The notes under the pieces were generated by a model. The model did no database searches, was not told the origin of the DNA, and saw only the letters and a list, made by a program, of their open reading frames with translations. Positions 904 to 22,390 of a stretch of 23,296 nt of DNA are shown in pieces. The first letter of the stretch is position 1. Each line of letters begins with the position of its first letter. The position numbers and the translations under genes are program-made. Source of the DNA: a virus; the IMG/VR virus record IMGVR_UViG_3300046459_000238, positions 1-23,296 of that record. The stretch is one strand, 5' to 3'.

Positions 904-3900
904 AAACAGGCCGGGGCCGGTTTTTAGTTCGTAGTCCTGTTTTGACTTGCGGCCTTCGGTGACCGGCTTAGCTTGAAATTGCGCCGGATTTTCGACACGT
1001 TCGCCGGACTTGTTTACGGCTTCGACATTTCCCCGAGCCGCCGCTTTTGCGTTCTCCACATGCTTCGACAACTCGTTGAAAAGTTCCTCCGAGGGCAACA
1101 GGTTTTTCGGGTCGGCGAACTGACGCTTTGCAAACGGGACGAAATCCGGGTCGCCCTTCACCGGCAATGAGCCATCGGGACGCCGCAAGTGCCGCCCGGC
1201 GAAATACCAGGACGACTGCATCAGCAATTCCGACATGAGCGCCCGGCGGGCCTCTGGAGAAAAAAGCTGGTAGTGCGTGAGCAGCGCATTGTATTCGCCA
1301 CGGGGTCCGAACTCGTTCCCTTCCGGGTTGTGCCCGTAATAGTCGTGCACGAACCGCAGGACTTCATTGACGTTCAGTTCTTTTCCGTGCAGCACCATCC
1401 CCGAGGGTTTGGTCAGCAAATTGTTTTGAATTTCGGGGGCCGCTTCCTTCAGTCCGCCAGCCGCGCCGAATTCGGTATCGGTCGGCAGGAAATAAAGATG
1501 CTTGTTGTTCTTCACGTCCTCAACCATCGCCTTCGAGCTTTTATAGGGCTCGCCCTTGTTGGGCCAGGGCTCTACGTCGATACCGGCATCCAGAATCCGT
1601 TGACCCTGGTCCTTGATTTCGTCGAACATTTTCGAGTAGCCCGCCTTCACCGCCGGGTCGTCCGGAGTGTGCGGCGTGTCTTCGAGATAGTCGGCCAGCC
1701 GCTTGATGAATTCCATCGGCACAGGCCGGTTATTCGGCAGCACCGGCTTAGGAAGGCCCACAGAAGCCGCGTAGTCTTCCGCAAGCTTCTCAGCTTCCGG
1801 ATTTTTTACGCGCTCGCTGGGAGGCTGAAAACTTGCTTCTCCGGGGTGCGTGTTCACCATCGGCGGACGCGGCCCGCCCTCTGCCTGAGTCGGCGGGCGC
1901 AATTCCGGAAGCTTGAAACCTTTCTTCTCCAGCGAAGGCCCGTATGTGGTGCTCTTCGCGACTGGTCCCCCCAAGTGGCTCAGGTCATCAACTGCGGTTA
2001 GCTGCGGCGCAATGCCCATGCCTATCGAAGAGAAATCTTGGTATCCGTCGTGAGTGGCCCGGTATTTTTTTCCGTCCGGCCCTTCAATATCAATCGGGAC
2101 GCGTTCCATCGGCTTGAATCCGGCGGTGACCGTGAGAGTGTTGCCCCGGAACTGCGGAAGCTCCGGCGCGGGCGTCACCTTCTTGATATTGGCGACGTTC
2201 AACTGCTGCAAAACGTTCTTCGGCTCCGGCAAACCGGGCGAAGCTTTTTTCATCGCATCGCGAAGCGGATTGACTTCGGCAATAGGCGCGCCAGCAACGC
2301 CGATTTTCTCCGCCCCTGGCCCGGCGAACTGACGACCAGTCGGAGTGACTCTCCCCGGCGCGGTCGCCTCAGAAATTTCCTGCGCCTGCAAATTACGCGG
2401 CAGCTTAGTGCCCCGGACAACGTCGGTTCGGGGAATAGCAGAGAGTTGGCCCTTGCTGCTGAAAAGGTGGTTGATTAAGTCCGCTTCGCCTTGGGAAATC
2501 GGCGTTGGCTTCGCGCCGGTCTTCTCCGGGGGAAACACGCCTCCGCGCGCCTGCGTTCCTGACGGAACTACTAATTCCTGGCCTGCGCCAGTGAAGCCGC
2601 CCATTTGATTCTGCACGTAGGCGTTTACCGATTTCTGGAAGCGGTCCCACTCTGGAGGAGTCAGCGAACGCAGACCGGCGTCCGTTTTGAACGGCACAAG
2701 CCCCTGGATTTCGGGATGGTCCGAAACGTAGCGAAAAAAGTCATGCGCGTTCTGCTCGAAAATTCCGGGGTCCCATCCGAGGATGGTATGTCCGCCGTCC
2801 TTCGTCGGCACTACCCGATAAGGAAAGAATTCTTTGCCGGTCTGGCTCGTGGTGTCAATCTTGACGCCGCCGTTGTTCGCGATTGCGTCCGAAGTCGTCG
2901 CCAGGGCATCTTTGACCGGCGGAGTGGTCGCAGTGTTGGCCATCTGCTGCGCTTCCTGCGCGGCCTGCTGACGCTGCTCCGCAGTGGCGGGAATAGCGTG
3001 AGAGGGCAGAGACACCGGCGGGGTCCCGGCGGGGGTAATGTCTGAAGGGGCAACAGGCGCGTTTTCACGCAGCCCTTTCGCCGCTTTCGCTTGCCCCTGC
3101 ACCACTTTATATTTCAGTGGCAGTTGCCCGTAGTCGGTCGTCCGGCCTGCGAGCGGCTCGCCGCCGAAAAACGAAATCATGTTTGCCACGCCGCGCCACA
3201 TTTTGCCGCCGAGCGTGTTCGGGCTCTGGCCAGCCTTCATCCAGGCGTCACCGTTCTCTGCGCGGATTTCGTCGCCGATGTAGTTGTCAACCACGCCCTG
3301 TTTTTCTTCCGGCGTCAGGACGGTTTCCCAAAGCTGTTTGCCCTGCGAGTCTGCGGCTGCTTGCGCGTCAGTGATTGCCTTGGCTTGCGCTGCGGGGTCC
3401 TCGATTCCGGCAATCAATTTTTCTCTTGCGGCTGCGTCACCTTTGCCGGACTGCGTAATCACGTAGGAGCCGGGGTCCGTGGTTAGAGTTCCATTGCCAG
3501 AGAGCCGCTTGGCGTAGGACTCCAGGTAGCCGTTCCACTCTTCCGAAGTGTAGGATTTCTTCGCGGCATCGTTGAGCGCCTGGACCGCGTTTGCTCCAAG
3601 CACGTCATCCATTGCGTGCATCGCCTCGTGTGGTGCTGCGTCCAGGTTACGGAAAAGAACTACTTTACGGTTTACGCCGTTGTTGTCCTTCAAATTAATT
3701 GCGTTGAACCCCTGTTGCTGCGAATAAAATTGCGCGTCTTCAGGAGACAAACCGGCCTTCTCCAGCGCCGCCGGTAATTGGTCGGGCTGGCCTTCGGCGG
3801 GCCTGGGAACATAAAAAGCCTCTGTGTCGGAGCCGATGCCTTTTCCGAATCCCCGGACCGCGTTGATTCGGGTCTGCGTTCCCTTGTTCGCCGAGTTATA

Positions 3901-9001: not shown

Positions 9002-9442
9002 CTAAATTTTCCTGTAAAACGCTTCCCCATAAGGGGCATACCCACGAGCTTTGTAAACTCGCCGCAATTTCTCCGGCGGAACATCAGAGAGATGCGAGAG
9101 CCCCGAAACAACGTAACCGCATCCCGCCGCCTTGCAATCTTTTTCGAACATGCGCAACAGGTCGAGCGCCTCGCCGCCCGGCTCCGTCATCCACGTATGT
9201 TCGAAGCCGCAAAGGCTGCCCGTGTAAAGGTCCGGCACAATCATGCCGAGAAAAAACGCTTTCGGCGCGTCGTGCTGAAATGAGCCGTAAGCTTTTCCAA
9301 AACCCTGCTCCATCATTCGCGCCCAAGACTTTATCAAAAATCCCACGTCCGCCGGACCGATAAACTTAATTCCGGCCACACGATTCGCCCACACTTTTGT
9401 CACAGCATCAGTCATTTCAGGCGTATTTAATCGGCGGACCAT
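9002..9442 (-). CDS. GNAT-fold-like protein, T7 gp13-like in position (146 aa)
   Basis: The second half follows the GNAT acetyltransferase pattern: a hydrophobic strand (FFLGMIVPDL), a helix (ALDLLRMFEKDCKAAGCGYV), then a Y-x-x-x-G-Y end with two Tyr-containing segments (VYKARGYAPYGEAFYRKI). A clear acetyl-CoA pyrophosphate loop (Q/RxxGxG/A) is not visible, so catalysis is doubtful. T7 gp13 is also small (138 residues), is placed by family classification near GNAT folds, and lies just before the ejection genes. The start is ATG 9442; an in-frame ATG ten codons in (MTDAV) is an alternative, and neither has a clear Shine-Dalgarno. It is preceded by a 24-bp gap holding a promoter-like repeat. 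Confidence 0.6.
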   Translation of the reverse strand: MVRRLNTPEMTDAVTKVWANRVAGIKFIGPADVGFLIKSWARMMEQGFGKAYGSFQHDAPKAFFLGMIVPDLYTGSLCGFEHTWMTEPGGEALDLLRMFEKDCKAAGCGYVVSGLSHLSDVPPEKLRRVYKARGYAPYGEAFYRKI

Positions 9443-9450
9443 GTATGGAG

Positions 9451-9480
9451 AATAGTCTCTAATTTTCTACGTCTTGACAA
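9451..9480 (-). promoter_or_regulatory. Promoter-like element upstream of the GNAT-like gene
   Basis: Minus-strand TTGTCA, 17 bases, then GACTATT. A near-copy with the same spacing lies at 15422-15451 (21 of 30 positions identical, including the 10-mer AGAGACTATT). It occupies one of the few uncoupled gaps. The -10 match to TATAAT is poor, so promoter function is tentative. Confidence 0.3.
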
Positions 9481-10285
9481 GCGTCCACAAAGCGATTTCG
9501 CCGGGGAAAACAAACGTCCCGGCAGCATAAAGCTTGTCCTGCTGAAACGTTTCGAATGCGGCCCTTGGAGTGATGCCCAAACCAACGGTAAGATTCGTTT
9601 CCGGCGTCGCGCCGGGGTCTTTCGTGGCCTGCGAGAGCACCCGCCCGCGAAAGTCCACGTTGCCCGCGCCGAAAAGCGCCCACCCTGGATTGCTATTGAG
9701 CGCATCGGTGAGGACTTCGAACGCCACTTGCTTAATGTCGCCCGGCACTCCGGAGACAGTGCGCCAGGAGGCGCGCTCCCACCAAATGAGACAGTTGATT
9801 GTGGTATCGAAAAATTGCTGGTAGTCCACCGGCGATGCTGGCCGCGCAGAAGTTGGTCCGGACGGGGGCTCGCTGTTGAACGGGGTCCAATTAACACCAT
9901 CGAACACATACCAACCCACCGCAGAGCCGAAATCATTCGGCGCAATGTCGGTAGCGTCTTTTGTGGTCCGCAGCCACACCGGCGGCGTGCTGGTGCCCGG
10001 CGTCGAAGTGCCGATGAAAAATGGAATGGTGAACGAGGCCGAAATATCCAGCGGCACATATCGCTTGATTGAGTCGTCCCACACCCACCACTGAGTCCCG
10101 TTTTTCAACCAGGGGCCAACGTTGCTCGTCGGCTCGGTGTCGCCGATGAAAATAAAGTTGGTGCCGTTGGGCGAAAGGATTTTCATCCGCTTCACCATCG
10201 CGGCGAGGAAGTCGTTTGGCGTGCCGCGAAAAGTTGCGGGCAGTGGCGCGGCCTGAATGAACAGGCTAGTAGGAATTAAGCTCAT
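9467..10285 (-). CDS. Probable tail/receptor-binding structural protein (272 aa)
   Basis: The start overlaps the upstream stop as ATGA. Residues 40-85 contain GDTEPTSNVGPWLKNG followed by WWVWD and YVPLDIS, an aromatic-rich motif I associate with phage tail/fibre proteins. A second aromatic cluster occurs at GWYVFDGVNW and a third at CLIWWERASW. The C-terminal third (TDALNSNPGWALFGAGN onward) resembles tail-fibre tip segments. There is one cysteine, no signal peptide and no enzyme motif. Its neighbours are tail components upstream and the GNAT-like and ejection genes downstream. Structural role likely, exact function unknown. Confidence 0.6.
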   Translation of the reverse strand: MSLIPTSLFIQAAPLPATFRGTPNDFLAAMVKRMKILSPNGTNFIFIGDTEPTSNVGPWLKNGTQWWVWDDSIKRYVPLDISASFTIPFFIGTSTPGTSTPPVWLRTTKDATDIAPNDFGSAVGWYVFDGVNWTPFNSEPPSGPTSARPASPVDYQQFFDTTINCLIWWERASWRTVSGVPGDIKQVAFEVLTDALNSNPGWALFGAGNVDFRGRVLSQATKDPGATPETNLTVGLGITPRAAFETFQQDKLYAAGTFVFPGEIALWTLVKT

Positions 10286-12027
10286 ACGTTTGTAAAGGTT
10301 GCTTCAAGTTCGATTTCGGTTTGCGTGGCGACTGATGGAGCGGCGCAGACTCCGCCCGCGATAACTCCAACGTCCACAATAAGTGTATAGGGCACTCCGC
10401 CGTTAGACGGCAGGGTGAGAGGAACATCATAGGTCCCAGCAGCATGTGCGGATGGGTCCCAGTTGAAAGAGAACGCAGGACCCCCCGGTCCGGGATTGAA
10501 AATCGCGATGCCTCCGCAAAGAGTGGGAATGTCTCCGCTTTTGTTCAGAACGATGTGGACATTTATGTTGCAGGTGCCGTTGCCCCCTACGGTGACCGAA
10601 GACTGGCGCTCGATTTGCGCATCGCTCGTGAACGGATTAGGAATGTTGGCGTGCACGGCTTGCTGGTTAGGCGTCGTTTGAGAGAAGCCGAACGTTCCGC
10701 CGCCATCGGCTCCGCTTGCAAGAGTGAACCAACCCGGCGTCAGCGAATCCCAATTCGGGCACGAGTTAATTACCCAGGTGCAATGTGGTTCGCACGCGTC
10801 GCACGAATTCCAGCAGTCGTTGTCCTTGTCGCATTCGATGACGTTGAAATCGTAGGTCCCCGGAGTCGTCGCAGTTCCCGAAAGCGTAGCCGTCGAAGCG
10901 TCGAAGGTGAGCCCCGGAATTCCAAACGGGTGCGGCGCTATATATTCAATCTGCCAGAAATACGGCGGGGTTCCGCCGGTTGCCGTCCAGGTGAATGAAT
11001 AGGGCACGCCGATTTCAGGAGTCGGAGGAGGCGACGTGCTGTTGACGCCCTCAACGAAAAGTCGGTAGCTCAGTTCTTGAAACTGGTTGCTCGCGTCCGT
11101 GATTTCGACAACGAAATTAAAAGTTCCGTATTCGGTCGGGGTGCCGTGAATGGACGCGCTCAGTGGCGTATCTTGCGTAAACACGATGCCCGCCGGGAGC
11201 GGGCCGACAAGTGAGAACGTGCAGGGGGCCGCAAAGGTGCCCGGCGCATCAAAAGTGAAACCGTCCGCGAAGTCCTTGCACATGTTGAACTCGAACGGCG
11301 GGCCGGGAGGACCCGCCGGTATGCACTTGCATTGCGTGGTGTCCCAAGCGAAGCCGGTATCACACGGCAGGTCCGGGAAACTACACGGAACACACTCACA
11401 CATTAATTCATTGAAACCGAAACCGTCTTCGCAGAGCGTGAGAGGCACGCAGCTACAGGCCGGTTTGCTGAGCGGCGTTTCGCCGTCCAGGGTAATCGCC
11501 GATACGGCATAGCAGCCGTCCGCGCAGGTCTGAAATATAAGTCCGGTGTTGGACACCAACTCAAGCGAATAGGTGCCGTCAATCGTTTCGCTCCGGTAGA
11601 TGTTGATTTGCGTCCCGGTCGGGAACTGGTCAATCGTCCAGTAGGAGTATCCGGTTCCGTCCGAGTGAAACGCGTCGCTCAGCGGAGTCGTCGAACCATC
11701 GGCGAGCACGGCGTCAAATTTGTAATAGCCAATCTTGCAAAGCGCGATGGTTCCGGGAGGCACGCACTCGCTGATGATGGCGAACTGGTCGCCCACGGTA
11801 GGCTGAAAATAAATCGTGTAACAGAGCGCGCCAGGGTAAGTGTTCCAGGACAAATACGAGTGGCCGATACCGCGCTTAATCAGACCGGTCGGGGAGTTGT
11901 TCCCGCCGATGGGCTCCAGCACAATCACGGCGTGGCCGGAGCCTGAGAAAATGGTTTCGCAGACCGGCGGGCAGACATATTCAATCCGAGGAGTCCGCAA
12001 AAATAAAGTGTCGAGGACGGTATTCAT
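10282..12027 (-). CDS. Cysteine-rich multidomain adhesin-like protein with fn3-like, EGF-like and He_PIG-like domains (581 aa)
   Basis: The start overlaps the nozzle-like gene stop as TAATG. I count 27 cysteines. Residues about 55-100 and 125-190 look fibronectin-III-like (LSWNTYPGALCYTIY; YAVSAITLDGETPLS). Residues 190-240 form a dense Cys cluster (CEDGFG...CECVPC...CDTGFAW...CKC) with EGF-like spacing. Residues 260-330 (LPAGIVF...IHGTPTEYGTFNFVVEITD) and 340-400 (GLTFDASTATLSGTATTPGTYDF) match the He_PIG/putative-Ig pattern. A second Cys group lies at 399-423. The C-terminal 150 residues look like a beta-sandwich. No signal peptide. Position right after the tail tube genes suggests a tail-tip or spike adhesin. 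Domain calls are from pattern recognition only. Confidence 0.65.
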   Translation of the reverse strand: MNTVLDTLFLRTPRIEYVCPPVCETIFSGSGHAVIVLEPIGGNNSPTGLIKRGIGHSYLSWNTYPGALCYTIYFQPTVGDQFAIISECVPPGTIALCKIGYYKFDAVLADGSTTPLSDAFHSDGTGYSYWTIDQFPTGTQINIYRSETIDGTYSLELVSNTGLIFQTCADGCYAVSAITLDGETPLSKPACSCVPLTLCEDGFGFNELMCECVPCSFPDLPCDTGFAWDTTQCKCIPAGPPGPPFEFNMCKDFADGFTFDAPGTFAAPCTFSLVGPLPAGIVFTQDTPLSASIHGTPTEYGTFNFVVEITDASNQFQELSYRLFVEGVNSTSPPPTPEIGVPYSFTWTATGGTPPYFWQIEYIAPHPFGIPGLTFDASTATLSGTATTPGTYDFNVIECDKDNDCWNSCDACEPHCTWVINSCPNWDSLTPGWFTLASGADGGGTFGFSQTTPNQQAVHANIPNPFTSDAQIERQSSVTVGGNGTCNINVHIVLNKSGDIPTLCGGIAIFNPGPGGPAFSFNWDPSAHAAGTYDVPLTLPSNGGVPYTLIVDVGVIAGGVCAAPSVATQTEIELEATFTNV

Positions 12028-14039
12028 TAGGTGTCGATGCCTGCTGAAATTGTGGGCGGAACTACTCCGGCAAGCTCTGCCTCCGCCTGTTTCGTGGCGA
12101 TTATTTTAGCGACTCGGTCGGCGGCGTTCTGATTGACGATGCTCTCCGCGAAACCAACGCCCACGGCGCTGAATCCGTCCTGGATTACAAGCTCCGTTTG
12201 GTTAGAAGTGAAGTGCTGTTCCTGCACGTCCGCAAGAGCGGCAGTGACTTCCTCCCGGTCGGTGCCCTTGACTGCGGCTCCGTCGTATCGGACCGCGTTC
12301 AGGCCGGTCTCGTCCTCGCACGCATTGGACGCGCCGGATTTGTCTTCCGGAGTAGTCAGTGCAAAAGAGCGGACATATTTAACCGTGGCCGGGCCGTGCC
12401 CCACAACGAGATATTGGAAGCAGTCGTCAATGTTGTCAATGTCGGCGCGTTCAATACCGCACGCACTCAAAGAATCGTTGTCGGTTTTCTGGTTCGCGTC
12501 CTCCGTGCGGACGGTGCGAGACTGTGGCTTGAAAGAAAAAATTGTGGTGTTTGCGTCCATCTCTACGTCCCAGGAGAGACTACCTTTTTCAACAGAAATC
12601 CGCTTGGACATGACTTGCTGAAAAGCGCCCCTGGTGCCGCCCGCATAAAACACGCCTAAGTCCAGGTCCTCCGCGATGCCAACCAGCGCAATGTCTACCC
12701 ACTGCAAGCGGCAGGTAGAGCCCGGCAGTTTGGCCTGCACCGGCGCGGTCTGGCCGAAGTGCGCGCGCGTGGTGAACGCCCAGGTAATCGGGCAACCGTT
12801 ATCTAGCCGGTCCGGCCTGAAGGATTCCCACAGCCGATTGTGCCCGTCCGTATCGGCGGAGACGTGAAAGGCGCGCTCTGCGTCCATGATTTCGCCGCAG
12901 ACCCACTCAACCGGGCGCGTCCCGGTCCAATGACCGGCCCACGACGGACCAGAGGCATCGGTCAGCGTCGCCAGGGAGGCGTTATTCAAAACCCAAGTGT
13001 GCTTGTTGAAAGTGTCCTCCGCCGGAACTGACATGACGAAAAATTGCCCGAAGGTGCCCGCCGCCACGAGACTCAAGTCCTCGCTGAGAGTGACTTTCGA
13101 GAACATCATTTCATTATCCCGGACCGGCAGCCGGGACGTTAGCTTGCCGGACGTGGCCGGGTCGAACACCGCGACGCCCGAAGGAGAAAACCAAATGACC
13201 TGCCCGTAGTGAGACTTTATCGAGCGATTCGAGAGGCATCCCACCTGCAAAATTTCTTCTTGAAAATTCGTGGTCGTCGGCCACTGCGAACGGTCCTGAA
13301 TGTTGGCCTGGAGGATGGAAGCGTTAGCCTCAGTGAAGACCAACAACTGCGGCGATTCCACGCTGGGAGTTTTTACCATCCCGGTCACTTCGCTGGCGAA
13401 GTAGAACGCGGTCTGTCCGCCGAGATAGATTTGCTCTCGGAAGCTAAACGGATTTGCAATGTCGCTCGCCTGCACCGAATTATTTACGGAGACCCAAAGA
13501 CGGTTGCCCACCCATACCATAGGCCCACCGGCGGGGGTATCAAAAGCGTGGTCGCGAATGTGGCCGGAGTTGGACCCGTCATACCAAGCGGGCGCGGTAA
13601 AGCCGCCGTCCTGCATAATGAGCACGGACTTGGGGGAAATTACTTTAATGCCCGATGAAAAGTCCTCGTTTAAACGCTCTGCCGCCTGAGTGGTGAGCGC
13701 CCAAAAAATCTGCTTCGCGGTCGGAGAAAAAAGAACGTTCGTGAGCAGGTGAAATTGATTGAATGGCCACAGGGCAACATAGACCTGCCCGTCAATGGCG
13801 ACGACCATCTGCTCCAGGCCCTCTTGCGGCTTGAAAATGGCCGCGCCCTGAAGGTTGCCGTCCGGTAACTGCACGATGCAGCGATGCCCAGGACGGCAAG
13901 AGAGTTGCCCGCCAAGGTTAATCATGTTCAGCATGGTCCAGCACGCGCCTATGCGGGTCTGCGACGGGTCATTAGACGAGTCAGCGCCCACGAAGAACGT
14001 GCCGTCATAGTCGAGGATTCTAGCGCCAGCTTCTCCCAT
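12027..14039 (-). CDS. Tail nozzle / tail tubular protein B-like structural protein (670 aa)
   Basis: The start overlaps the adaptor-like gene stop as TAATG. The protein is beta-rich with repeated strand-turn segments (VWVGNRLWVSVNNSVQASD, LLVFTEANASILQ, VIWFSPSGVAVFDPATS, FFVMSVPAEDTF) suggestive of a propeller or stacked beta domains. About ten cysteines are scattered. The C-terminal 80 residues are helical and Ala/Glu-rich. Length and place directly after the adaptor-like gene fit T7 gp12 (794 residues), the nozzle of the short tail. The call rests mainly on order and secondary-structure impression; an alternative is a generic baseplate or tail protein. Confidence 0.6.
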   Translation of the reverse strand: MGEAGARILDYDGTFFVGADSSNDPSQTRIGACWTMLNMINLGGQLSCRPGHRCIVQLPDGNLQGAAIFKPQEGLEQMVVAIDGQVYVALWPFNQFHLLTNVLFSPTAKQIFWALTTQAAERLNEDFSSGIKVISPKSVLIMQDGGFTAPAWYDGSNSGHIRDHAFDTPAGGPMVWVGNRLWVSVNNSVQASDIANPFSFREQIYLGGQTAFYFASEVTGMVKTPSVESPQLLVFTEANASILQANIQDRSQWPTTTNFQEEILQVGCLSNRSIKSHYGQVIWFSPSGVAVFDPATSGKLTSRLPVRDNEMMFSKVTLSEDLSLVAAGTFGQFFVMSVPAEDTFNKHTWVLNNASLATLTDASGPSWAGHWTGTRPVEWVCGEIMDAERAFHVSADTDGHNRLWESFRPDRLDNGCPITWAFTTRAHFGQTAPVQAKLPGSTCRLQWVDIALVGIAEDLDLGVFYAGGTRGAFQQVMSKRISVEKGSLSWDVEMDANTTIFSFKPQSRTVRTEDANQKTDNDSLSACGIERADIDNIDDCFQYLVVGHGPATVKYVRSFALTTPEDKSGASNACEDETGLNAVRYDGAAVKGTDREEVTAALADVQEQHFTSNQTELVIQDGFSAVGVGFAESIVNQNAADRVAKIIATKQAEAELAGVVPPTISAGIDT

Positions 14040-15046
14040 TACCTTATGTCGTAGTCGTATTTGTCTCGCGGCTGGCTCATGTCGATGACCTGAATGGGCA
14101 TATACAAGGGCGGCTCTGCCATTTGCTGCGCTTCAATTTCCAGTCGCGCGGCGTCCGCCTCGTAGGCGTGCGCGTCGGCAATCTGAAGGTCTGCGTAATG
14201 TTTCCGAGCCTGCATAGCGAGCAAGAAAGCGACGCGGCTTTTCAAGGCGATATGGTCGAAGCGACTGAAGAAAACTGGATTGGTCTTGCGGTAGGCGATG
14301 CGCGCCCAGTTGCAAGAGCGGTTGAGTTGAATCCGCCGATACTGCGGGTTCTGTTCGTCCGGCTCGTAAATTCCCAGGAGGGTGCCGGTGGTGCCGCTGT
14401 CATCCGTGGTGCTGAGCCGGACATTGCCCACAGTTCGGTCTTTGAAAATTCCGGTGATGCGTGCAATCTCTGGCGCGCCCACGTCCGGGACTGCGACGCC
14501 GTAAATCGTTGGGACCCGATAGCCGTTTAACACCTGCCCGCCCTCCGTGTGGCGCAGGACATTGCCCTTGCTATCGAACCCGTAAACTATGAAAGTCTTG
14601 CCGTTGTCTTCCGGCGTCTGGAGATACGCGACGAGTTGCGCCGGGTGCACAAGGTCACGAAAAGTAAAATGGTAGCCGCCCTGGTCCATCCACTTCCACT
14701 CGCAGATTGTTTTGCAGCTTCCGGGACCGTTCAAATGGAACTCGAAAAGCTGAGCCATCCCGAGCACGGGTTGCCCGCCGATGTTCACGCCGATGACCAT
14801 TTCCACTTCGCGCGGCATCGTGATGCAGCGCCGCCCGCACCCGGCAGGATTGTTGCAAATGCTGCCGATTTTATCGCACCCGCTGCAACCGGCGGAACAA
14901 ATGTCGATGAAGCCTTTCCAGCCTTCCAGGTCGGCCTTATTCGAAATCAGGGTGACCGCATCACCGCACCAGCGAAAAAGTTTGGTGTCGTCGCAGACGC
15001 CAATGATTTTTTTGGCCTCGTCGTATATATCGTCTACTCGGAAAAT
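14039..15046 (-). CDS. Head-tail adaptor-like (gp11-like in position) protein with probable ATT start (335 aa)
   Basis: The ORF is open from a TGA inside the upstream gene, but no ATG, GTG or TTG occurs before codon 77 (ATG 14818). The 76 codons before that ATG read as a good protein: VDDIYDEAKKIIGV, then WCGDAVTLISNKADLEGW, a helical start I recognise from phage adaptor/neck proteins, then a Cys cluster (C50, C54, C57, C64, C70, C74). ATT at 15046 stands 5 bases after GGGGAGG, ideal spacing. After residue 77, ITMPREVEMVIGVNIGG and FEFHLNGPGSC continue a family pattern I recall from phage structural proteins. The C-terminal 80 residues are helical (ARKHYADLQIADAHAYEAD). It ends in a TAATG overlap with the nozzle-like gene. 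If ATT is wrong, a sequencing error near 15046 or a 259-residue product from 14818 are the alternatives. Confidence 0.7.
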   Translation of the reverse strand: MFRVDDIYDEAKKIIGVCDDTKLFRWCGDAVTLISNKADLEGWKGFIDICSAGCSGCDKIGSICNNPAGCGRRCITMPREVEMVIGVNIGGQPVLGMAQLFEFHLNGPGSCKTICEWKWMDQGGYHFTFRDLVHPAQLVAYLQTPEDNGKTFIVYGFDSKGNVLRHTEGGQVLNGYRVPTIYGVAVPDVGAPEIARITGIFKDRTVGNVRLSTTDDSGTTGTLLGIYEPDEQNPQYRRIQLNRSCNWARIAYRKTNPVFFSRFDHIALKSRVAFLLAMQARKHYADLQIADAHAYEADAARLEIEAQQMAEPPLYMPIQVIDMSQPRDKYDYDIR

Positions 15047-15421: not shown

Positions 15422-15451
15422 AATAGTCTCTGTTTTCTCAGGTTTAGGCAA
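15422..15451 (-). promoter_or_regulatory. Promoter-like element upstream of the 118-aa gene
   Basis: Minus-strand TTGCCT, 17 bases, then GACTATT, ending 4 bases before ATG 15417. The near-copy is at 9451-9480. If it is a promoter, transcription would start at or next to the start codon, giving a near-leaderless message. Tentative. Confidence 0.3.
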
Positions 15452-16115
15452 GCAGCACAACCGCCAAATCGAAAATTTGTGGCTGCGACGCGGTGCCGTT
15501 CCACGAGCACTGCACCGAGTTAAGCACTCCGTTGGATTCACTGAACGCCATCGTCTGCGGTCCACTTTCCGAGAAAGCGTAACCAATCACTGCTGGAGAC
15601 GACAGTGCTACCTGAGTGAAAAAAACAGAATCAAGCACGTCGGCATTAGACGAATTAGGGGTAAACACTTCTGCGGTAAAATTTGGGCTCCCTTTGGTTA
15701 TGTCCACAAACAGCATAGCGCGATACGGGGTAAAGCCCGCCGCCGGGACAACCGCGTTGCCCGATGGAACAAACGAAGCCCCAAGGGCTACCGTAGTTCC
15801 TACTCTAGTTAATGGTGCTGGAGCAACCTGGGTATAAGAAAACGCATTGGTAGTCCAGTTTCCTCCGTATCGAATTCCTATAAAGTTTGTGGTGCTAAAA
15901 TCTCCTATGATGTTCGCGACTCCGGAGCCAAACCCCAAATGAAGCTGATATGAGGAATTCAGACCCACGAAAGGAGTCATCATCCAAAGAATCCCAACGC
16001 GAATTTTGGACCAAGTCGAAGGTAGCGTGATTGGCCGAGCCCAGGACGAACTCGACATTGAAATTGCAAGGTTAGGTCCCCCGCCGATAGTAGTGGTTGC
16101 TATGATAGATGCCAT
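15444..16115 (-). CDS. Adhesin-cassette second gene, copy 2 (223 aa, beta-rich)
   Basis: The start overlaps the upstream adhesin stop as TAATG. It is paralogous to the protein at 19709-20374: shared segments are SxSxWARxxTLPxxWSKxRxG, GDxxTTNFIG, xxFVDIxKGSPN, FFTQV, and the identical end AVVLLA. It is predicted to be all-beta, with few charged residues and Ser/Thr/Gly/Asn-rich loops, like phage tail-spike or appendage subunits. One cysteine, no signal peptide. Function unknown; constant pairing with the Ig-like gene suggests the two products assemble together. Confidence 0.65.
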   Translation of the reverse strand: MASIIATTTIGGGPNLAISMSSSSWARPITLPSTWSKIRVGILWMMTPFVGLNSSYQLHLGFGSGVANIIGDFSTTNFIGIRYGGNWTTNAFSYTQVAPAPLTRVGTTVALGASFVPSGNAVVPAAGFTPYRAMLFVDITKGSPNFTAEVFTPNSSNADVLDSVFFTQVALSSPAVIGYAFSESGPQTMAFSESNGVLNSVQCSWNGTASQPQIFDLAVVLLA

Positions 16116-17464
16116 TATCTAAATCCTCCGCCAAATGCTGTTCTGAGTATCTGCACTCTGTTGTATAAGTTCTGTGCCTGTGCCGCAGTCAGGCCGTGCG
16201 CCACACAGATAAAAGACATGACTGCGTTACTAAAGCCTTGTGCGACTCCAGCAACATTCTGAGCAAAAGCAGTTAGCTCTGTGGCGTTCAACACCCCAGC
16301 GGCTCCAGCGTTGCTGCCAACATTCACGAAAGGAACTGATGAACTTGCGAAGTATAAGTCCATCGCGGTCGCCGAAGTTCTGGACGTGATATAGAATCCA
16401 TTTCCGGGAGAGGCTGCTGTGATGCGCGCGGTAGCGAAAGCGTAAAAGTCCGTGATTACGTGAAACCCGAATGCCTGATAATCTGACAACAACGACCAAG
16501 TGTTTGCTCCTCCTCCGTCGTAGTTCCCAAGCTCTACTCCCTGGCTAGTCGAATTTTTTGTGTAATCATACATGGCAAGAACGCCATCGGTAACAGTCAC
16601 CCCGCATGTATTGGTTATTAGCCCGGTCTGCAAATACTTAGTGGACCCGTTGCCCGCGAGACCATTAACTGTCAGGTCTCCCGAAACAAAATTGTGATTA
16701 GTCCATAGAGCGTTCCCCGCCGTCTTAATCATCGGAGTGAGTGCAGCAGTAAGAGAGTCCGGCGCAATTCCAACCGCAGAAATCATCAGGGAGTCTGTTC
16801 CGTCCTGGTTAAGTCCGGAGAGGAAATCGGAAACTGCGTTCATACTCGCAGCCGATGGCAGCGAGCCTCCGTTCGTCACCACCTGAAGTCCCCAGGCGTT
16901 TGAACTGCTGGTGCTGGCTGCCGCGCAGGTGTTCGAAGTAAAAACGCGTCCCACGTTATCGGTCACTTGCAGAACGAAATTTCCGTCGTAAAAATTCTGC
17001 CAGTTCGCGATGCTCAGCGTCGCTGTATCGGCCCCGGAAATATCGCCTCCGTTCGACAACGGCGAGCCATTCCGAAACCACTGATACGTGAACGGGGGCG
17101 CTCCGCCGACAATGGGAAAAGTATAAAAGGACCCTGTGCTACCGGTGATGACAGTCTTAGAGTTCAATATCGACACAAAGATATTATCTCCGCCGTATGC
17201 AGCAGGCCAGCCGGTGCCTCCGTTCCGGGTAGCTATCTCTTGCCCCACGGTGTAAGACTCCATGTCGTCTACCGAGATAGTCCCCAGGTAAGTATTGCGG
17301 TCTGTGTATGGGGCTTTTTTGCACCACCCGGTCCCCTGATTGAGACCGTTGACAGTCGCTCCCACCGTGTAGGACTCCATCGTGTCAGTCAGGAGCCCGC
17401 CCGTGAGCATCGGAGGGCAGCGAAAAATGCCGCCGCTTCTTCGGTTGATGACGGGATTAGGCAT
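16115..17464 (-). CDS. Ig-like / lectin-like adhesin, copy 2 (449 aa)
   Basis: The start is ATG 17464 (MPNPVINRRSGG), because the same N-terminus begins the paralogue at 20379-21746; the longer frame to 17689 runs through two other genes. Residues 27-94 hold two copies of a D-x-h-E-S-Y-T-x-G...NGGTGW motif. Residues about 100-180 form an Ig-like domain (GSFYTFPIVGGAPPFTYQWF, RNGSPLSNGG, ATLSIANWQ, LQVTDN). The C-terminal part contains IAPDSLTAALTPMI, then LWTNHNFVSGDLTVNGL and GNGSTKYLQTGL, a lectin-like (LamG-type) pattern I recall in phage tail proteins. It ends AQNLYNRVQILRTAFGGG. Likely a surface-exposed receptor- or glycan-binding protein. It overlaps the 53-aa gene by 8 bases. Confidence 0.7.
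   Translation of the reverse strand: MPNPVINRRSGGIFRCPPMLTGGLLTDTMESYTVGATVNGLNQGTGWCKKAPYTDRNTYLGTISVDDMESYTVGQEIATRNGGTGWPAAYGGDNIFVSILNSKTVITGSTGSFYTFPIVGGAPPFTYQWFRNGSPLSNGGDISGADTATLSIANWQNFYDGNFVLQVTDNVGRVFTSNTCAAASTSSSNAWGLQVVTNGGSLPSAASMNAVSDFLSGLNQDGTDSLMISAVGIAPDSLTAALTPMIKTAGNALWTNHNFVSGDLTVNGLAGNGSTKYLQTGLITNTCGVTVTDGVLAMYDYTKNSTSQGVELGNYDGGGANTWSLLSDYQAFGFHVITDFYAFATARITAASPGNGFYITSRTSATAMDLYFASSSVPFVNVGSNAGAAGVLNATELTAFAQNVAGVAQGFSNAVMSFICVAHGLTAAQAQNLYNRVQILRTAFGGGFR
17183..17386 (-). repeat. Two ESYTxG...NGGTGW repeats in adhesin copy 2
   Basis: Residues 27-56 (DTMESYTVGATVNGLNQGTG...) and 66-93 (DDMESYTVGQEIATRNGGTG...) are about 40 residues apart. The same pair occurs in copy 1, so the motif appears four times in the window. 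Confidence 0.6.
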
Positions 17465-17618
17465 TTGGGTCTGGTATGTTTTTGACCACGAGAACGTATT
17501 CCGGCGCGCCTGCCGTCTTCGCGCCCCCGCGCGGAGATTTGCACTTGCTGGAATAAACATGCTCCTTGTCCCGCAGCACGGGAATGGCGCACGACTTGTT
17601 TCCTTTGTGGCATCCCAT
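17457..17618 (-). CDS. Small cysteine-containing protein (53 aa), unknown
   Basis: The ATG at 17618 lies one base after the stop of the fibre gene. The frame runs 53 codons to TAA at 17459-17457, overlapping the start of the adhesin by 8 bases (ATGCCTAA). The product begins MGCHKGNKSCAIPV, has three cysteines (C3, C10, C26), many Lys/Arg, and ends EYVLVVKNIPDPNA. It fills the only gap between two otherwise coupled genes, and its start and stop fit the window's coupling pattern, which favours a real gene. No family recognised; a small zinc-binding or accessory virion protein is possible. Confidence 0.6.
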   Translation of the reverse strand: MGCHKGNKSCAIPVLRDKEHVYSSKCKSPRGGAKTAGAPEYVLVVKNIPDPNA

Positions 17619-17619
17619 A

Positions 17620-18735
17620 TTACGCGATTCGAATGTGCGTGAACGTGGTGCCCTGCCACATTATCGAGGCGTGCGAGGCTGTGCTGCACTCGCCGTAGAG
17701 CGTGATTGTCTGGTTCGGGTTCAGCGTCTCAACAATGGAAATCAAAGTAATCTGCCGATACTGGCCCGCCGTCGTGGTCTCCCACCCGGAGATAGTTTGC
17801 TGACTGCCCACTACGTCCGCCGCCGTGTTGTCGTTGACGAGCTTCAGAGAGCAGAAGTCAGCGATATTAATTAACGCCGCGTCTGCGAGAATCATCGCGG
17901 TAACCATGACCAAATACTTCCCGGCCTCAACCGCCAAAAACTGCGGGATGGAAGTGCCGAAATCAACCGTCGCAAATGGGTTTGGTAACGGGAAATTAGT
18001 TCCCGCCGTGGCAGTGTATACGCCGTTCTCCGTGGTGAACGAGGAGCCGGGGTCACCTTTGTCGCCCTTGTCGCCTTTGATGGAGTCGCCTTTACGCCCC
18101 TGGACGCCAGGGATGCCGGATTCGACAACGAGCTTGCCCGCCGCAATCGTTGCTGGCGCTGAGGACAGAGCTTGAATGAGCGTCAGGAAAAGCGTGCCCG
18201 CGCCGTCTGCACTATTGACCACATACCATCCGGACGTGTCGATAAACAGATAGGTCCCGGTCAGGTTCACCGCCGGGTTGTTGGCCGTGAATACCGCAAC
18301 GGTCGGCGCGGAGAGTGACGGCTGTGTGAAAGAGGAAAGCGTCACCGTGTATGCATTATTCCCGTTAGTGCCTGAATTGCCTTTATCCCCTTTGTCGCCT
18401 TTTAGCCCAACAATGCCATCCATGAACAGGCGGAGGAAATAACAGGCGAGCCCTTCATCGGTTCCGCGCGGGTTCGCCGGGAGACCTACGTCGAGGCTGC
18501 ACGGCAGAGACCAGACGACCTTGCCGTCCACTTCGGTTTTGACGACTTCGCCAAAAAACTGCGTGGTGAAATTAGAAATCTGGCTCGGGAGTGATTCGCA
18601 CTTGGCCGAGTTGTGAGGGCCGCGCCCGCAGGGATTCTCGCAGCCGAGATTTTCCTTGCTGCACCCGTCGAGGAAATTTTCCTTGCGGTCTTCGTCACCG
18701 TCGCCGCAGTTCGAGCATTTGTGTGTATCACTCAT
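17620..18735 (-). CDS. Collagen-like tail fibre with Cys-rich N-terminus and C1q-like tip (371 aa)
   Basis: Residues 1-48 are Cys-rich (CSNC, GCSKENLGCENPCG, KC). Residues 49-108 contain a conserved-looking globular segment (SLPCSLDVGLPANPRG, GLACYFLRLFMDGI). Short collagen-type Gly-x-y runs occur at 107-120 (GIVGLKGDKGDKG) and 207-230 (GIPGVQGRKGD, KGDKGDKGDPG), separated by a beta domain of about 85 residues. Residues 260-371 resemble a C1q/TNF-type jelly roll (AGKYLVMVTAMILAD, FCSLKLVNDNTAADVVG, ITLYGE, GTTFTHIRIA). The architecture suggests a trimeric fibre with a receptor-binding tip. No good Shine-Dalgarno at ATG 18735. It is followed one base later by the 53-aa gene. Confidence 0.75.
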   Translation of the reverse strand: MSDTHKCSNCGDGDEDRKENFLDGCSKENLGCENPCGRGPHNSAKCESLPSQISNFTTQFFGEVVKTEVDGKVVWSLPCSLDVGLPANPRGTDEGLACYFLRLFMDGIVGLKGDKGDKGNSGTNGNNAYTVTLSSFTQPSLSAPTVAVFTANNPAVNLTGTYLFIDTSGWYVVNSADGAGTLFLTLIQALSSAPATIAAGKLVVESGIPGVQGRKGDSIKGDKGDKGDPGSSFTTENGVYTATAGTNFPLPNPFATVDFGTSIPQFLAVEAGKYLVMVTAMILADAALINIADFCSLKLVNDNTAADVVGSQQTISGWETTTAGQYRQITLISIVETLNPNQTITLYGECSTASHASIMWQGTTFTHIRIA

Positions 18736-18755
18736 TTGTCGTAAATGTCATTTGC

Positions 18756-18771
18756 GTAACACGTATGTTAC
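18756..18771. repeat. Inverted repeat between lipoprotein and fibre genes
   Basis: GTAACACGTATGTTAC has 6-base arms (GTAACA/TGTTAC) around a 4-base centre and covers the lipoprotein stop codon. It has no T-run, so it is not a classical terminator. It could be a protein-binding site or chance. Confidence 0.3.
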
Positions 18772-19532
18772 AATTTCTTTGCTACCGTCTTCACTACCGC
18801 TTGAACGTCGGTGTCCTGCGCGCCGTTCTGGGCGGCAGCGAAACCCGCCGTCACCTTGGCCGCGACTATCGGGTCAAGCTCTTTGCCCACCCACGCAAGA
18901 AAATCTTTGCTGCCCGCCACTACCTGAGTAAGGCCCTTGCCTGCCAGCGTGCCCGCCACGTTCATAGCGCCCACGCCCACGGCAGCGCCGGGGTTAGCCG
19001 CCGAGGCAACAGTCAAAGCGGTCTTGGCCAGATGCCAACCAACGAAAATAATCAGCACGAAGCCGCCCGCGTAAACAAAATACGGAACAGACACCGCGCC
19101 GGTGCCCTCGATTTTCTTTCCGGCGTTCTCGTTGTTTTCCACTGTAAAAGAGTCCAGCTTTTTCTCCAGTTTGGCAATCTGCCCCCGAAGGTCCGCAATG
19201 AGTGCGTCAGTCTGAATGTTCGCAGTCGCTTTAGCGGGAGCGCCTACCGATTCCGCCACGACCGCAGTGAGCTTTTCAGTCTCCACAGCAGGGGCAAGAA
19301 TATTAGTGCTAGACCCCTCAGCCAAAGCGGCGTGCAGAGTATCAGCGGCTTTCTCGTTTGCTTTCTGAGCAGCTTCTCGCTGCAATTCTTTTTGCTTCTG
19401 CGTAGCCGCAGGAACTTTATGCACCTTGTCCTGAAAAAATTCAACTGGCTTCGGTATCAGACTTGTGCAACCGGCTGCGCTTATCGCGACGGCGGCGACG
19501 AGAAGTAGCGCCTTTATTCTCTTTATTTTCAT
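18768..19532 (-). CDS. Lipoprotein with coiled coil and second membrane segment, possible unimolecular spanin (254 aa)
   Basis: ATG 19532 has AAAGGA four bases upstream. Residues 1-22 form a lipoprotein signal: KIKRIK, a hydrophobic stretch, then SAAGC with the lipid-bearing Cys22. Thr at the next position favours outer-membrane sorting. Residues 44-70 and 108-135 are helical or coiled-coil (KQKELQREAAQKANEKAAD; LRGQIAKLEKKLDSF). Residues about 149-168 are a membrane helix (PYFVYAGGFVLIIFVGW). An Ala/Gly-rich C-terminal domain of about 85 residues follows. Cys22 is the only cysteine. An outer-membrane lipid anchor plus an inner-membrane span is the layout of unimolecular spanins such as T1 gp11, although the long tail after the span is unusual. 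The first 92 bases overlap the holin-like gene in another frame, a typical lysis-gene arrangement. Confidence 0.65.
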   Translation of the reverse strand: MKIKRIKALLLVAAVAISAAGCTSLIPKPVEFFQDKVHKVPAATQKQKELQREAAQKANEKAADTLHAALAEGSSTNILAPAVETEKLTAVVAESVGAPAKATANIQTDALIADLRGQIAKLEKKLDSFTVENNENAGKKIEGTGAVSVPYFVYAGGFVLIIFVGWHLAKTALTVASAANPGAAVGVGAMNVAGTLAGKGLTQVVAGSKDFLAWVGKELDPIVAAKVTAGFAAAQNGAQDTDVQAVVKTVAKKL

Positions 19533-19704
19533 ATTTTCCTTTGATGATGTGGTAGATGGTGTAGAGCCCTGCGATTAACTGGACCAGTATGAGCAGGGTG
19601 GACATGATAGGAGTGATTTTCGTGATAACATCGTGAATGCCTTGTAAGGTGATATTCACCCCCGCGAGCGTGATTAATCGGTCGTTAAATTGCGGAGTGC
19701 TCAT
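19441..19704 (-). CDS. Small membrane protein, holin-like (87 aa)
   Basis: The start is ATG 19704 (MSTPQFNDRLITLAG); the longer frame to 19725 would use codons of the previous gene. One membrane helix spans about residues 33-54 (IMSTLLILVQLIAGLYTIYH). The C-terminus is strongly basic (RRRRRDKRSRLHK), predicting a cytoplasmic tail. The N-terminal 30 residues could form an amphipathic helix. Size, topology and the out-of-frame overlap with the lipoprotein gene suggest a holin. No endolysin is visible here, so the assignment is inferential; a spanin partner or a membrane anchor are alternatives. Confidence 0.55.
   Translation of the reverse strand: MSTPQFNDRLITLAGVNITLQGIHDVITKITPIMSTLLILVQLIAGLYTIYHIIKGKYENKENKGATSRRRRRDKRSRLHKSDTEAS
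19537..19542 (-). promoter_or_regulatory. Shine-Dalgarno AAAGGA for the lipoprotein, inside the holin-like gene
   Basis: AAAGGA then AAAT then ATG 19532. It supports independent initiation of the overlapping lipoprotein within the holin-like coding sequence. Confidence 0.6.
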
Positions 19705-19716
19705 AAAATTATGCGA
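19702..19716 (-). repeat. 15-bp junction repeat, copy at the 3' side of the 221-aa gene
   Basis: Minus-strand TCGCATAATTTTATG: the stop of one gene, four T bases, then the ATG of the next. It is identical to 20372-20386. The core CATAA-TT-TTATG is also an inverted repeat. Confidence 0.5.
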
Positions 19717-20374
19717 GTAGGACAACCGCCATGTCGTTGATTTCGCACACTACGGCAGTGTCGCCCCACCACACGGAGACTGCATTCAGCGGCCCGGCGG
19801 ATTCATCAAAAGGAATTGTTACCGCGCCGGTGTAGGCATGCTGGCCAAAAGAAGGAGTAGCAGCAATAACCTGGGTAAAGAACTGAGCAGAAGTGCACCC
19901 GGTAAAACCGCCGTTGATGTTCGGACCGAACATAAAAACAGAATAGTTGGGACTACCTTTGAGTATGTCCACAAAAATCATATCTTGGTTCGCCGAAGTA
20001 TTCGTCGTGCCAGCTTGCAGAAATGTGCGCAGAATACTCGTCCCAATCGTGGTCGTGGTTCCCACTTTTTTCATCGCGGCCAAGGTCATATCAAACTGGG
20101 CTCCGTTATAGGACCCCCCTACAACATTCCCTGCCCCTATGAAATTCGTAGTGAGATAGTCGCCTACCATGTTCGTGACGCCGGAACAGAACCCCATAGC
20201 GAAAGATGCCCCGCTGGTTATCTGAGTGTTGGGGCTTAGCATAAGACGTAAACCCAGCCGGACCTTACTCCAGTTCGCGGGAAGTGTGACTCCCCTGGCC
20301 CAAGTTGAATTGGACATGGAAATCACGTTGTCGTTTGCCGCGCTGATTACTCGTGTTTGAATCGTAGAAGACAT
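19709..20374 (-). CDS. Adhesin-cassette second gene, copy 1 (221 aa, beta-rich)
   Basis: The start is 4 bases after the Ig-like adhesin stop. It is a paralogue of 15444-16115 with shared segments at the start (NSTWARGVTLPANWSKVRLG), middle (GDYLTTNFIG; DMIFVDILKGSPNYSVF), FFTQV and the end AVVLLA. It is beta-rich with Ser/Thr/Gly/Asn loops, three cysteines and no signal peptide. A trimeric appendage or accessory adhesin subunit is plausible, but no family is recognised. It is bounded on both sides by an identical 15-bp sequence that includes its own start region and the next gene's start. Confidence 0.65.
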   Translation of the reverse strand: MSSTIQTRVISAANDNVISMSNSTWARGVTLPANWSKVRLGLRLMLSPNTQITSGASFAMGFCSGVTNMVGDYLTTNFIGAGNVVGGSYNGAQFDMTLAAMKKVGTTTTIGTSILRTFLQAGTTNTSANQDMIFVDILKGSPNYSVFMFGPNINGGFTGCTSAQFFTQVIAATPSFGQHAYTGAVTIPFDESAGPLNAVSVWWGDTAVVCEINDMAVVLLA

Positions 20375-20386
20375 AAAATTATGCGA
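20372..20386 (-). repeat. 15-bp junction repeat, copy at the 5' side of the 221-aa gene
   Basis: Minus-strand TCGCATAATTTTATG, identical to 19702-19716. The two copies lie exactly at the borders of the 221-aa gene. Confidence 0.5.
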
Positions 20387-21746
20387 AGCCTCCGCCTAGA
20401 GAAACTCTGAGCGCTTGTGTTGCGTTGAAAAGTGCCTGACCGTTTGCGGAACTGAGTCCATCCTGGACACAATAGAATGAAAACCGGGTGGCGTTCGCAT
20501 GGAACCCGGATTCTCCGTGGTAACCACCAAAGGCCATTGTTCGGTTGATTGGACCTTGCGTGTTGTTAGTGTTGCCGGTCCCCACAGACCCCCAAGCTAC
20601 TCCAGAGCTTGCTAAGTATAGTGTGTGAGAATTCGAAGCCGTCCTAGAGTCCATGATAAAATACCCAGCGGCCCCCAGGGTTGCTATAATGTCGATGCCT
20701 CCGGTTTCGAGACCATTTGCAAAAGTGCAAGTGCCGTTAAACGCGCTTCTCGGACCCCCGCCTAATCCAGGTCTGTTACCCGCTTGGTCGGAAATGTATC
20801 CTATCAAAAAATTGTCAATCGTTGGGACGCCGGGCGAACAGTAAATACTAAAGCCCATGTTCGCGGCAGTGAAGGAGGCTATAGCAGTGCAGTCAACCCC
20901 GGTGTCGTAGATTAAGCCATTGCAGTTTATCCCCGCCGTGGTTACTGACGGAGTTCCAGCGCCGCTAGAATGCCCGCTATAGTAAGTAAACCCAACCGTC
21001 GCAATATACGGGGTCAGCGCAGCTACCAAACTATCCGGAGCAATCAAGTTGACGTGATACAGATTTGCCCTGATGCCTGCGGTGGTGACTGCGGCGTCCC
21101 AGGTGTCGAAAGCCGAAATGGTGTTTGTGCTAGGCCAGCGTCCGCCGTTCGTGACTACTAGGTTAGCCCAAATTTGCGCGTTAGTCGTCCCCACTGAAGC
21201 GGCGCACGCTTGCGATGGCACAACTCTGCTAGTCGTGTCCGTGACGTTGCATGTATAAGATGCCGCGTCCGAATTCTGAAAATTAGAAATCCCGAGCGTG
21301 TTGGTCAGAGCGCCGGTGATGTTACCGGTGTTCGTTAGCGCGACTCCGTTTTTATACCACTGATAGGAATACGCCGGAAATCCGCCGCTTGCTGTGGCGA
21401 AAATACTGAGCGTGCTACCTGCGGTCGGGACTGCTGCCAAGTCAGAAATTACAACAGAAACGTCGTCCGCTTCGTATGCAGTAGCCCAAGCACCGGTGCC
21501 GCCGTTCAGGGTCCGAAGATTCACTCCGCCGGTGTAGGACTGAAAATCGTCGGTGGTGAGAATCCCCAGGTATGCCGTCCGGTCCGCGTAACTGGCCAGC
21601 TTGCACCATCCAACGCCGCCGCTGAGATTATTCAACGCGGCTCCGCTGACGTAGGACTCGAACGTGTCAGATTGTTCTCCGCCCACCTGCATAGCGGGGC
21701 AGCGGAAAGGTCCGCCGCTCCGCCGGTTGATGACTGGATTCGGCAT
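20379..21746 (-). CDS. Ig-like / lectin-like adhesin, copy 1 (455 aa)
   Basis: The start is ATG 21746, overlapping the upstream stop as TAATG; the extended frame to 21830 is a shadow of the previous gene. The N-terminus MPNPVINRRSGG matches copy 2 (16 of the first 18 residues). Residues 27-95 hold two ESYxxG...NGGTG repeats. Residues about 102-185 are an Ig-like domain (GSTLSIFATASGGFPAYSYQ, WYKNGVALTN, LGISNFQNSDAASYTCNVTD) with Cys166 at the classical strand-F position. The C-terminal part has IAPDSLVAALTPYI and a lectin-like region, then ends ALFNATQALRVSLGGGFA. Copies 1 and 2 are much more diverged after residue 200, as expected for receptor-binding regions. Likely virion-surface adhesin. 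Confidence 0.7.
   Translation of the reverse strand: MPNPVINRRSGGPFRCPAMQVGGEQSDTFESYVSGAALNNLSGGVGWCKLASYADRTAYLGILTTDDFQSYTGGVNLRTLNGGTGAWATAYEADDVSVVISDLAAVPTAGSTLSIFATASGGFPAYSYQWYKNGVALTNTGNITGALTNTLGISNFQNSDAASYTCNVTDTTSRVVPSQACAASVGTTNAQIWANLVVTNGGRWPSTNTISAFDTWDAAVTTAGIRANLYHVNLIAPDSLVAALTPYIATVGFTYYSGHSSGAGTPSVTTAGINCNGLIYDTGVDCTAIASFTAANMGFSIYCSPGVPTIDNFLIGYISDQAGNRPGLGGGPRSAFNGTCTFANGLETGGIDIIATLGAAGYFIMDSRTASNSHTLYLASSGVAWGSVGTGNTNNTQGPINRTMAFGGYHGESGFHANATRFSFYCVQDGLSSANGQALFNATQALRVSLGGGFA
21465..21668 (-). repeat. Two ESYxxG...NGGTG repeats in adhesin copy 1
   Basis: Residues 27-56 (DTFESYVSGAALNNLSGGVG...) and 66-94 (DDFQSYTGGVNLRTLNGGTG...). Same arrangement as in copy 2. 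Confidence 0.6.
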
Positions 21747-22390
21747 TAATCCTGCAAGATGCCGAAGGTGATTTGAACGTCGGTGGTCGCTGCGAAGGTC
21801 GGTGTGCCCGAAGTAACCACGGCAGCCCATAGAGAAGTGCCGGACGCTTTGAGCGCGATGCCCAAGCTGGTCTCGTGCGCTACCGCTTTGCTGTTCACGG
21901 TGACGTAGTCAGAAGCCGCCACGGAAACATGGGCGATGACTTTTAGGTCGTCGGTCGAGAAAACGAAAGCCGCTTTGTCGGTGATAGTCGCAGCCGTTGG
22001 GTCTGCGTCGAAAATGAAAATATCCAGAGCGGCCTTTTGATTGGCCCGGTCCAGAACGATGATGGACTCTAAAATGCCAGTGCCTACCGAAGTAAGCGCG
22101 CCGGTTAGAGTGCGTTTGCCGCCTACCGCGTTGCCTGCGGAATATCCGGAAGCAGTGACAGCAGTGGCGTCTTTGATGACGGTCGTTTTGCCGCCCACGT
22201 TGCCGGTTACAGCAGCGTTGAGTTGCGAGCCCGTAGGCTGGACGACTGTGACGTTACCCGTGACGCCTACATTGCCGGATACAGTTGTGCCCGTGCTTCC
22301 GCCGGTGCCGCCTGTGCCGTTTAGCGTATCGAGAATTTTGCGGAGGATATTGTATTGGTTGTCCCCCTGCCTGAAGGTTGTGTCTGACAT
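21746..22390 (-). CDS. Phage structural protein, possibly head decoration or head fibre (214 aa)
   Basis: Residues 1-25 are helical (NQYNILRKILDTLNG), then a Gly/Thr linker and a repetitive V-T-G-N-V stretch (about 38-70). Residues 90-214 form a beta-rich domain (ILESIIVLDRANQKAALDIF, IFDADPTAATITDKAAFVFS, DLKVIAHVSVAASDYV, LWAAVVTSGTPTF) of a type I recall from hypothetical proteins beside phage capsid or tail genes. There is no cysteine. No clear Shine-Dalgarno at ATG 22390. It is the first gene after the capsid-gene hairpin. Structural role likely; exact location in the virion unknown. Confidence 0.65.
   Translation of the reverse strand: MSDTTFRQGDNQYNILRKILDTLNGTGGTGGSTGTTVSGNVGVTGNVTVVQPTGSQLNAAVTGNVGGKTTVIKDATAVTASGYSAGNAVGGKRTLTGALTSVGTGILESIIVLDRANQKAALDIFIFDADPTAATITDKAAFVFSTDDLKVIAHVSVAASDYVTVNSKAVAHETSLGIALKASGTSLWAAVVTSGTPTFAATTDVQITFGILQD

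Follow-up and report, generated by a model that had tools for sequence, protein, structure and literature searches.

The window analyzed here corresponds to a complete IMG/VR record (23,296 bp), and every gene discussed lies on its minus strand. It probably contains a portable two-gene adhesin cassette in two allelic versions, one in each of two tail/fibre slots, with A1 and B1 in slot 1 and A2 and B2 in slot 2 (Table 1). Slot 2 would most likely have been filled by a slot-1-type cassette through recombination with a related phage. Each A protein would dock to the virion via its nine N-terminal residues, with the Ig domain and the C-part facing outward, and would cooperate with a lectin-like B protein encoded by the next, closely spaced gene. 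The two cassettes may confer two surface (probably glycan) specificities, or one of them may be kept in reserve. Taken as a whole, we consider this account likely.

Table 1. Features of the two cassettes and of the neighboring genes in the window
Feature	Position	Strand	Remarks
A1, 455 aa (slot 1)	20379..21746	-	candidate docking tag, two FESY repeats, Ig and variable C-part
A1 candidate virion-docking tag MPNPVINRR, residues 1-9	21720..21746	-	
A1 FESY repeats, residues 26-62 and 65-100	21447..21671	-	
A1 Ig-like domain, residues 97-185	21192..21458	-	Pfam Ig_3, E 1.9e-7; AlphaFold and Foldseek
B1, 221 aa, predicted lectin-like beta-sandwich	19709..20374	-	ATG 4 nt past A1 stop
A2, 449 aa (slot 2)	16115..17464	-	architecture as in A1
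A2 candidate docking tag MPNPVINRR	17438..17464	-	
A2 FESY repeats, residues 26-62 and 65-99	17168..17389	-	
B2, 223 aa, B1 homologue	15444..16115	-	ATG overlaps A2 stop (TAATG)
Slot-2 segment, 2,021 bp, A2 ATG to B2 stop	15444..17464	-	absent in G4, G5 and G12
53-aa ORF, slot-2 marker	17457..17618	-	its stop overlaps A2 ATG (ATGCCTAA)
Collagen-like fibre protein between the cassettes	17620..18735	-	86-89% aa conservation in sister phages
Lipoprotein-like protein between the cassettes, putative lysis role	18768..19532	-	lipobox read from sequence
Small basic protein	19441..19704	-	holin-like by position only
Conserved gene preceding slot 1	21746..22390	-	82-100% aa in sister phages

Two homologous two-gene units in the window

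The preliminary description read the four ORFs as homologous pairs in the same order, and all four are present on the minus strand. Homology between A1 and A2 spans the entire proteins (38% identity, E 2e-85), and the same is true of B1 and B2 (40% identity, E 1e-48); these full-length protein matches beyond chance rule out a similarity confined to the first 20 residues. The N-termini of the A proteins are near-identical, as had been described (17/19 identical over the first 19 residues); identity is 59% in the N-part (95 aa), 43% in the Ig domain and 29% in the C-part, which is strongly diverged with homology still detectable. DNA alignment of the pairs was limited to the 5΄ end of A (66% over 286 bp) and a short part of B. 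The Ig-like domain said to be common to both A proteins was recovered above the Pfam cut-off as Ig_3 in A1 and below the curated cut-off as I-set in A2 (E 4.9e-4). What is present twice is a modular two-gene unit with a conserved N-terminus and variable C-parts, and an adhesin function of A and B, together with two binding specificities, is plausible.

Between the pairs, a lysis/fibre block had been proposed; the collagen-like fibre is there, but the lysis part depended on a non-significant spanin match (E 0.078). The 53-aa ORF directly upstream of A2 (17457-17618), which had been overlooked, has the C-terminus PDPNA in the window versus PDPNVT(N) in the sister phages. At the other end of the window, positions 1-5559 of the minus strand encode a very large protein (>1,850 aa, truncated at the end of the record), which is kept in the sister phages and whose sole family match is a short one to phrog_3170, of unknown function.

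We modelled A1 (with AlphaFold) and B, and compared the models using Foldseek. For A1, a confident Ig fold was obtained at residues 97-185 and the C-part was partly modelled; the model is too weak outside the Ig domain and part of the C-part, with pLDDT <50 at residues 1-93. Although the C-part of A appears LamG-like by eye, it had no match in Pfam, and we left it unnamed. The B model is a beta-sandwich (pLDDT 82) that matches L-type lectins such as ERGIC-53 (probability 1.00, E 2e-4 to 8e-4), with TM-scores to ERGIC-53 and plant lectins of mostly 0.33-0.43, all <0.5 to solved lectins, and a sequence identity of about 10%; the best viral structure match is an unnamed protein (TM 0.79). B is predicted from this model to be a lectin-like beta-sandwich. 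Family searches found no enzymatic or depolymerase family in A or B.

Slot 2 in related phages and the origin of A2B2

Scans of viral contigs identified phages whose backbone is almost that of the window, namely G4 (IMGVR_UViG_3300046689_000393), G5 (3300046536_000225) and G12 (3300046533_000302); G1-G3 are apparently fragments of the G4 phage. Backbone proteins of the window and these three phages are mostly 82-100% identical, and the identity of A and B between phages is only about 30-60%. The search of relatives for different cassette numbers, suggested in the preliminary description, found one cassette in G4 and G5, located in slot 1 after the homologue of the 21746-22390 gene, and one in the more distant G6, where a tag-FESY protein with a different C-part is followed by B. 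Slot 1 of G12 holds B-B-A, with another tag-bearing protein between the next two genes. In G34, the slot-2 position (L126:6343-9764, sense orientation) contains three collagen-like fibres in tandem, all with a B-type domain at the C-terminus. Similar pairs of an A-type and a B gene were found in other phages (L172, L176, L177 and L181). Among sequenced phages, the Ig domain of A1 alone had matches; B2 and the 670-aa tail protein had none, and no relative of the 670-aa tail protein or of B was confirmed in bacterial genomes.

Several additional arrangements were observed. A 238 kb contig (L179, IMGVR_UViG_3300037264_008423) contains seven consecutive ORFs with B-type domains at 9265-14797, a large local family expansion. 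At L165:8538-10663, a C-part protein adjoins a B-type protein and both start in a signal-peptide-like manner; this pair may represent a bacterial, secreted form of the cassette. Sugar-metabolism genes lie upstream of the tail region in G4 (L048:2825-3796 and 14034-14909); one encodes a nucleotide-sugar epimerase (E 1e-76), and the product of the other has a weak glycosyltransferase match (E 0.001).

The DNA alignments of the window with G4 and with G5 both end where the A2 start codon begins, at its first base, and restart just past the B2 stop, and G12 has no gene in slot 2. The difference in slot 2 between the window and its sister phages is exactly two genes, A2 and B2 (15444-17464). Since A2B2 is of the slot-1 type, a gain by the window is preferred over losses elsewhere; however, the outgroups do not separate gain from loss, because slot 2 of more distant relatives holds other B-type genes.

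In maximum-likelihood trees, the C-part of A1 groups with that of G5 (support 100/100) and the C-part of A2 with that of G12 (98/99), and the nearest relative is G4 for both the N-part of A2 (71%) and B2 (52%). By these affinities, A2 is a mosaic. AU tests rejected A1 and A2 as sisters for the C-part (P = 1.8e-8) and, at borderline levels with few taxa and long branches, A1 and A2 for N+Ig (P = 0.02) and B1 and B2 (P = 0.029). The comparison of synonymous divergence by parts gave a dS between the two cassettes of 1.31 in the N-part of A and undefined (saturated) values in the Ig domain, C-part and B, compared with 0.05-1.0 for backbone genes of the window and sister phages; the cassettes are therefore long-diverged alleles. 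The best reading of A2B2 is that of a recombined allele drawn from the wider population, not of a recent copy of A1B1.

These results bear on how the second cassette could otherwise have arisen. A recent duplication of A1B1 within this genome, with fast divergence of the binding parts, would account for the same gene order and the 17/19 identical first residues, but it is contradicted by the trees, where the rejection of A1 and A2 as sisters is strongest in the C-part, and by synonymous divergence that is saturated outside the N-part, against the backbone values; we give it very little credence. True tandem duplication is seen in G12, whose two B genes are sisters (100/99), unlike the A and B pairs of the window.

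An ancient duplication in the lineage, with both slots filled in a common ancestor, subsequent loss from slot 2 of G4, G5 and G12, and later recombination that blurred the trees, is unlikely in our judgment but better placed. The frequent presence of B-type genes in slot 2 of distant relatives suggests that an occupied slot 2 may be old, and the window falls outside G4, G5 and G12 in the tail gene, so that a single loss and a single gain are equally parsimonious. Against this, A2B2 has the slot-1 make-up (tag, FESY, Ig and C-part) and clusters with alleles from slot 1 of G12 and G4, and among the mapped relatives no occupant of slot 2 is built in this way. The old duplication with diversification put forward in the preliminary description is only partly right and is not supported in the form given, as sisterhood of A1 and A2 and of B1 and B2 is rejected and the nearest relatives lie in different phages. 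The phylogeny largely points to independent acquisition instead, the rival being an ancient duplication with subsequent gene conversion and loss.

The least probable source of the variation, to which we assign almost no weight, is a diversity-generating retroelement or a fibre-gene inversion switch. The binding parts are highly variable, and several relatives (G4, G16, G25, G33 and G37) encode a resolvase-type recombinase. However, a search of 10 records, the window and G4 among them, found no reverse transcriptase (PF00078), the cassettes share one strand, the window, G5 and G12 records yielded no recombinase, and the differences extend over whole genes. The recombinase, present in several of the longer relatives, is a resolvase/invertase-type serine recombinase far from the cassettes (in G4, L048:5922-6614).

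Candidate docking tag and a proposed partnership of A with B

The sequence M(P/S)NPV(I/V)NRR heads A1, A2 and differently built adhesins of related phages. C-part proteins of G12, G14, G15 and G16 that have neither FESY nor Ig start with the same nine residues or close variants, and the tag-headed adhesins comprise several domain make-ups. A scan of 2.9 million viral contigs for the tag at the DNA level yielded 12 matches, 10 of which start adhesin-type proteins in phages that share the same tail gene; the matches in L146 and L147, one identical unrelated 74-aa ORF, were set aside. The phages newly found among these 10 (G36, G37 and G38) carry this 670-aa tail gene. The conserved N-terminus had been regarded as the virion-attachment part, and this can be narrowed to a candidate of about nine residues, because the FESY repeats that make up the remainder are absent from other adhesins with the same tag. 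The shared virion-docking part is thus probably only M(P/S)NPV(I/V)NRR.

A homologue of the window gene at 10282-12027 in G15 (L123:8440-10041, sense orientation) ends in an A-type C-part, and therefore the module also moves into another tail gene.

The FESY motif, of about 35 residues (D-D-M-E-S-Y..G...L.GL.GGTGW....Y), follows the tag in A in two copies, or three in G12. The A-type proteins of L176, L177 and L181 also show degenerate FESY-like repeats. In the phages of L161-L164, L167, L168, L170, L174, L180, L182 and L186, the ORF directly upstream of a stand-alone B ends in FESY, and in L199-L203, which were found via FESY alone and are mutually near-identical, B lies 6 nt downstream. Other relatives have B fused to a collagen-like fibre as its C-terminal domain, directly behind FDDYS..G.I.TFD.G.GW. 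Among tag-bearing phage species, some of whose records are fragments, B was present in 5/5 with FESY and 0/5 without it (Fisher two-sided P = 0.008). These patterns support the idea that A and B act together.

We compared profiles with the fused fibres, and found that FESY joined to B scored 265.2, versus 240.9 for B alone and at most 249.0 for 100 column-permuted controls; the FESY profile alone had no significant match to the fused fibres (best E 0.61 and 3.5). Together with the position of FESY directly upstream of B genes in many phages and the fusion of a homologous segment to B in others, this suggests that A may dock B through a split lectin-like domain, and a split-domain partnership of the two proteins is plausible. 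More specifically, but only tentatively, A could serve as a scaffold in which the two or three FESY repeats represent first segments detached from the lectin-like domain of B; separately made B subunits would dock onto A by completing this domain and form a multivalent fibre tip, the same domain being unsplit and fused to collagen-like fibres in other phages. As a counterpoint, B modelled alone is fairly confident (pLDDT 82). A programmed frameshift or readthrough joining FESY and B was set aside, as reading-frame relations vary between loci.

Comparison with known adhesin systems

Swappable phage adhesins are an ordinary biological theme; in the present case the cassette boundary is unusually clear and the tag is newly defined. 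The window offers a traceable case of a phage that would have gained a second binding unit as a whole two-gene cassette, at a precise and otherwise empty site, with alleles from relatives. The nine-residue tag could also aid the annotation of adhesins without a known family match. Two molecular ideas, a docking tag and a lectin-like domain split over two genes, are raised in a phage group for which no cultured relative was found here.

Among known systems, the branched receptor-binding systems of Escherichia coli phages K1-5 and K1E, Salmonella phage SP6 and Klebsiella phages KP32 and KP34 have fibre genes that break an otherwise conserved gene order, and short N-terminal peptides are kept while the remainder of the adhesin is exchanged (hepta- and undecapeptides in K1E, K1-5 and SP6, and MALxxLV in KP34 viruses) (PMC6872550). 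The window is similar in that a short N-terminal peptide is shared by several variable adhesins. In contrast, the peptide found here is unrelated in sequence, belongs to uncultured phages and heads Ig/C-part proteins without a recognized depolymerase, and each FESY-bearing A is paired with a second gene, B. No match to a T4 gp10-like anchor or branching protein was found among the scanned window proteins, most of which have no family match at all.

In the tail-spike complex of Ackermannviridae, gaining extra tail-spike genes is reported to alter host recognition (PMC11414711). Several adhesin genes per phage are likewise present here, although the tail spikes of Ackermannviridae are clustered at one locus, whereas the cassettes of the window occupy two slots that are three to four conserved genes apart. 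The fold of the B model resembles L-type lectins such as ERGIC-53 at the TM-scores and identity given above. Ig-like decoration and tail proteins of phages (Hoc-like, I-set) match the Ig domain at residues 97-185 of A; however, the Ig domain of the window is one module of a tag-FESY-Ig-C protein, rather than a whole head decoration protein.
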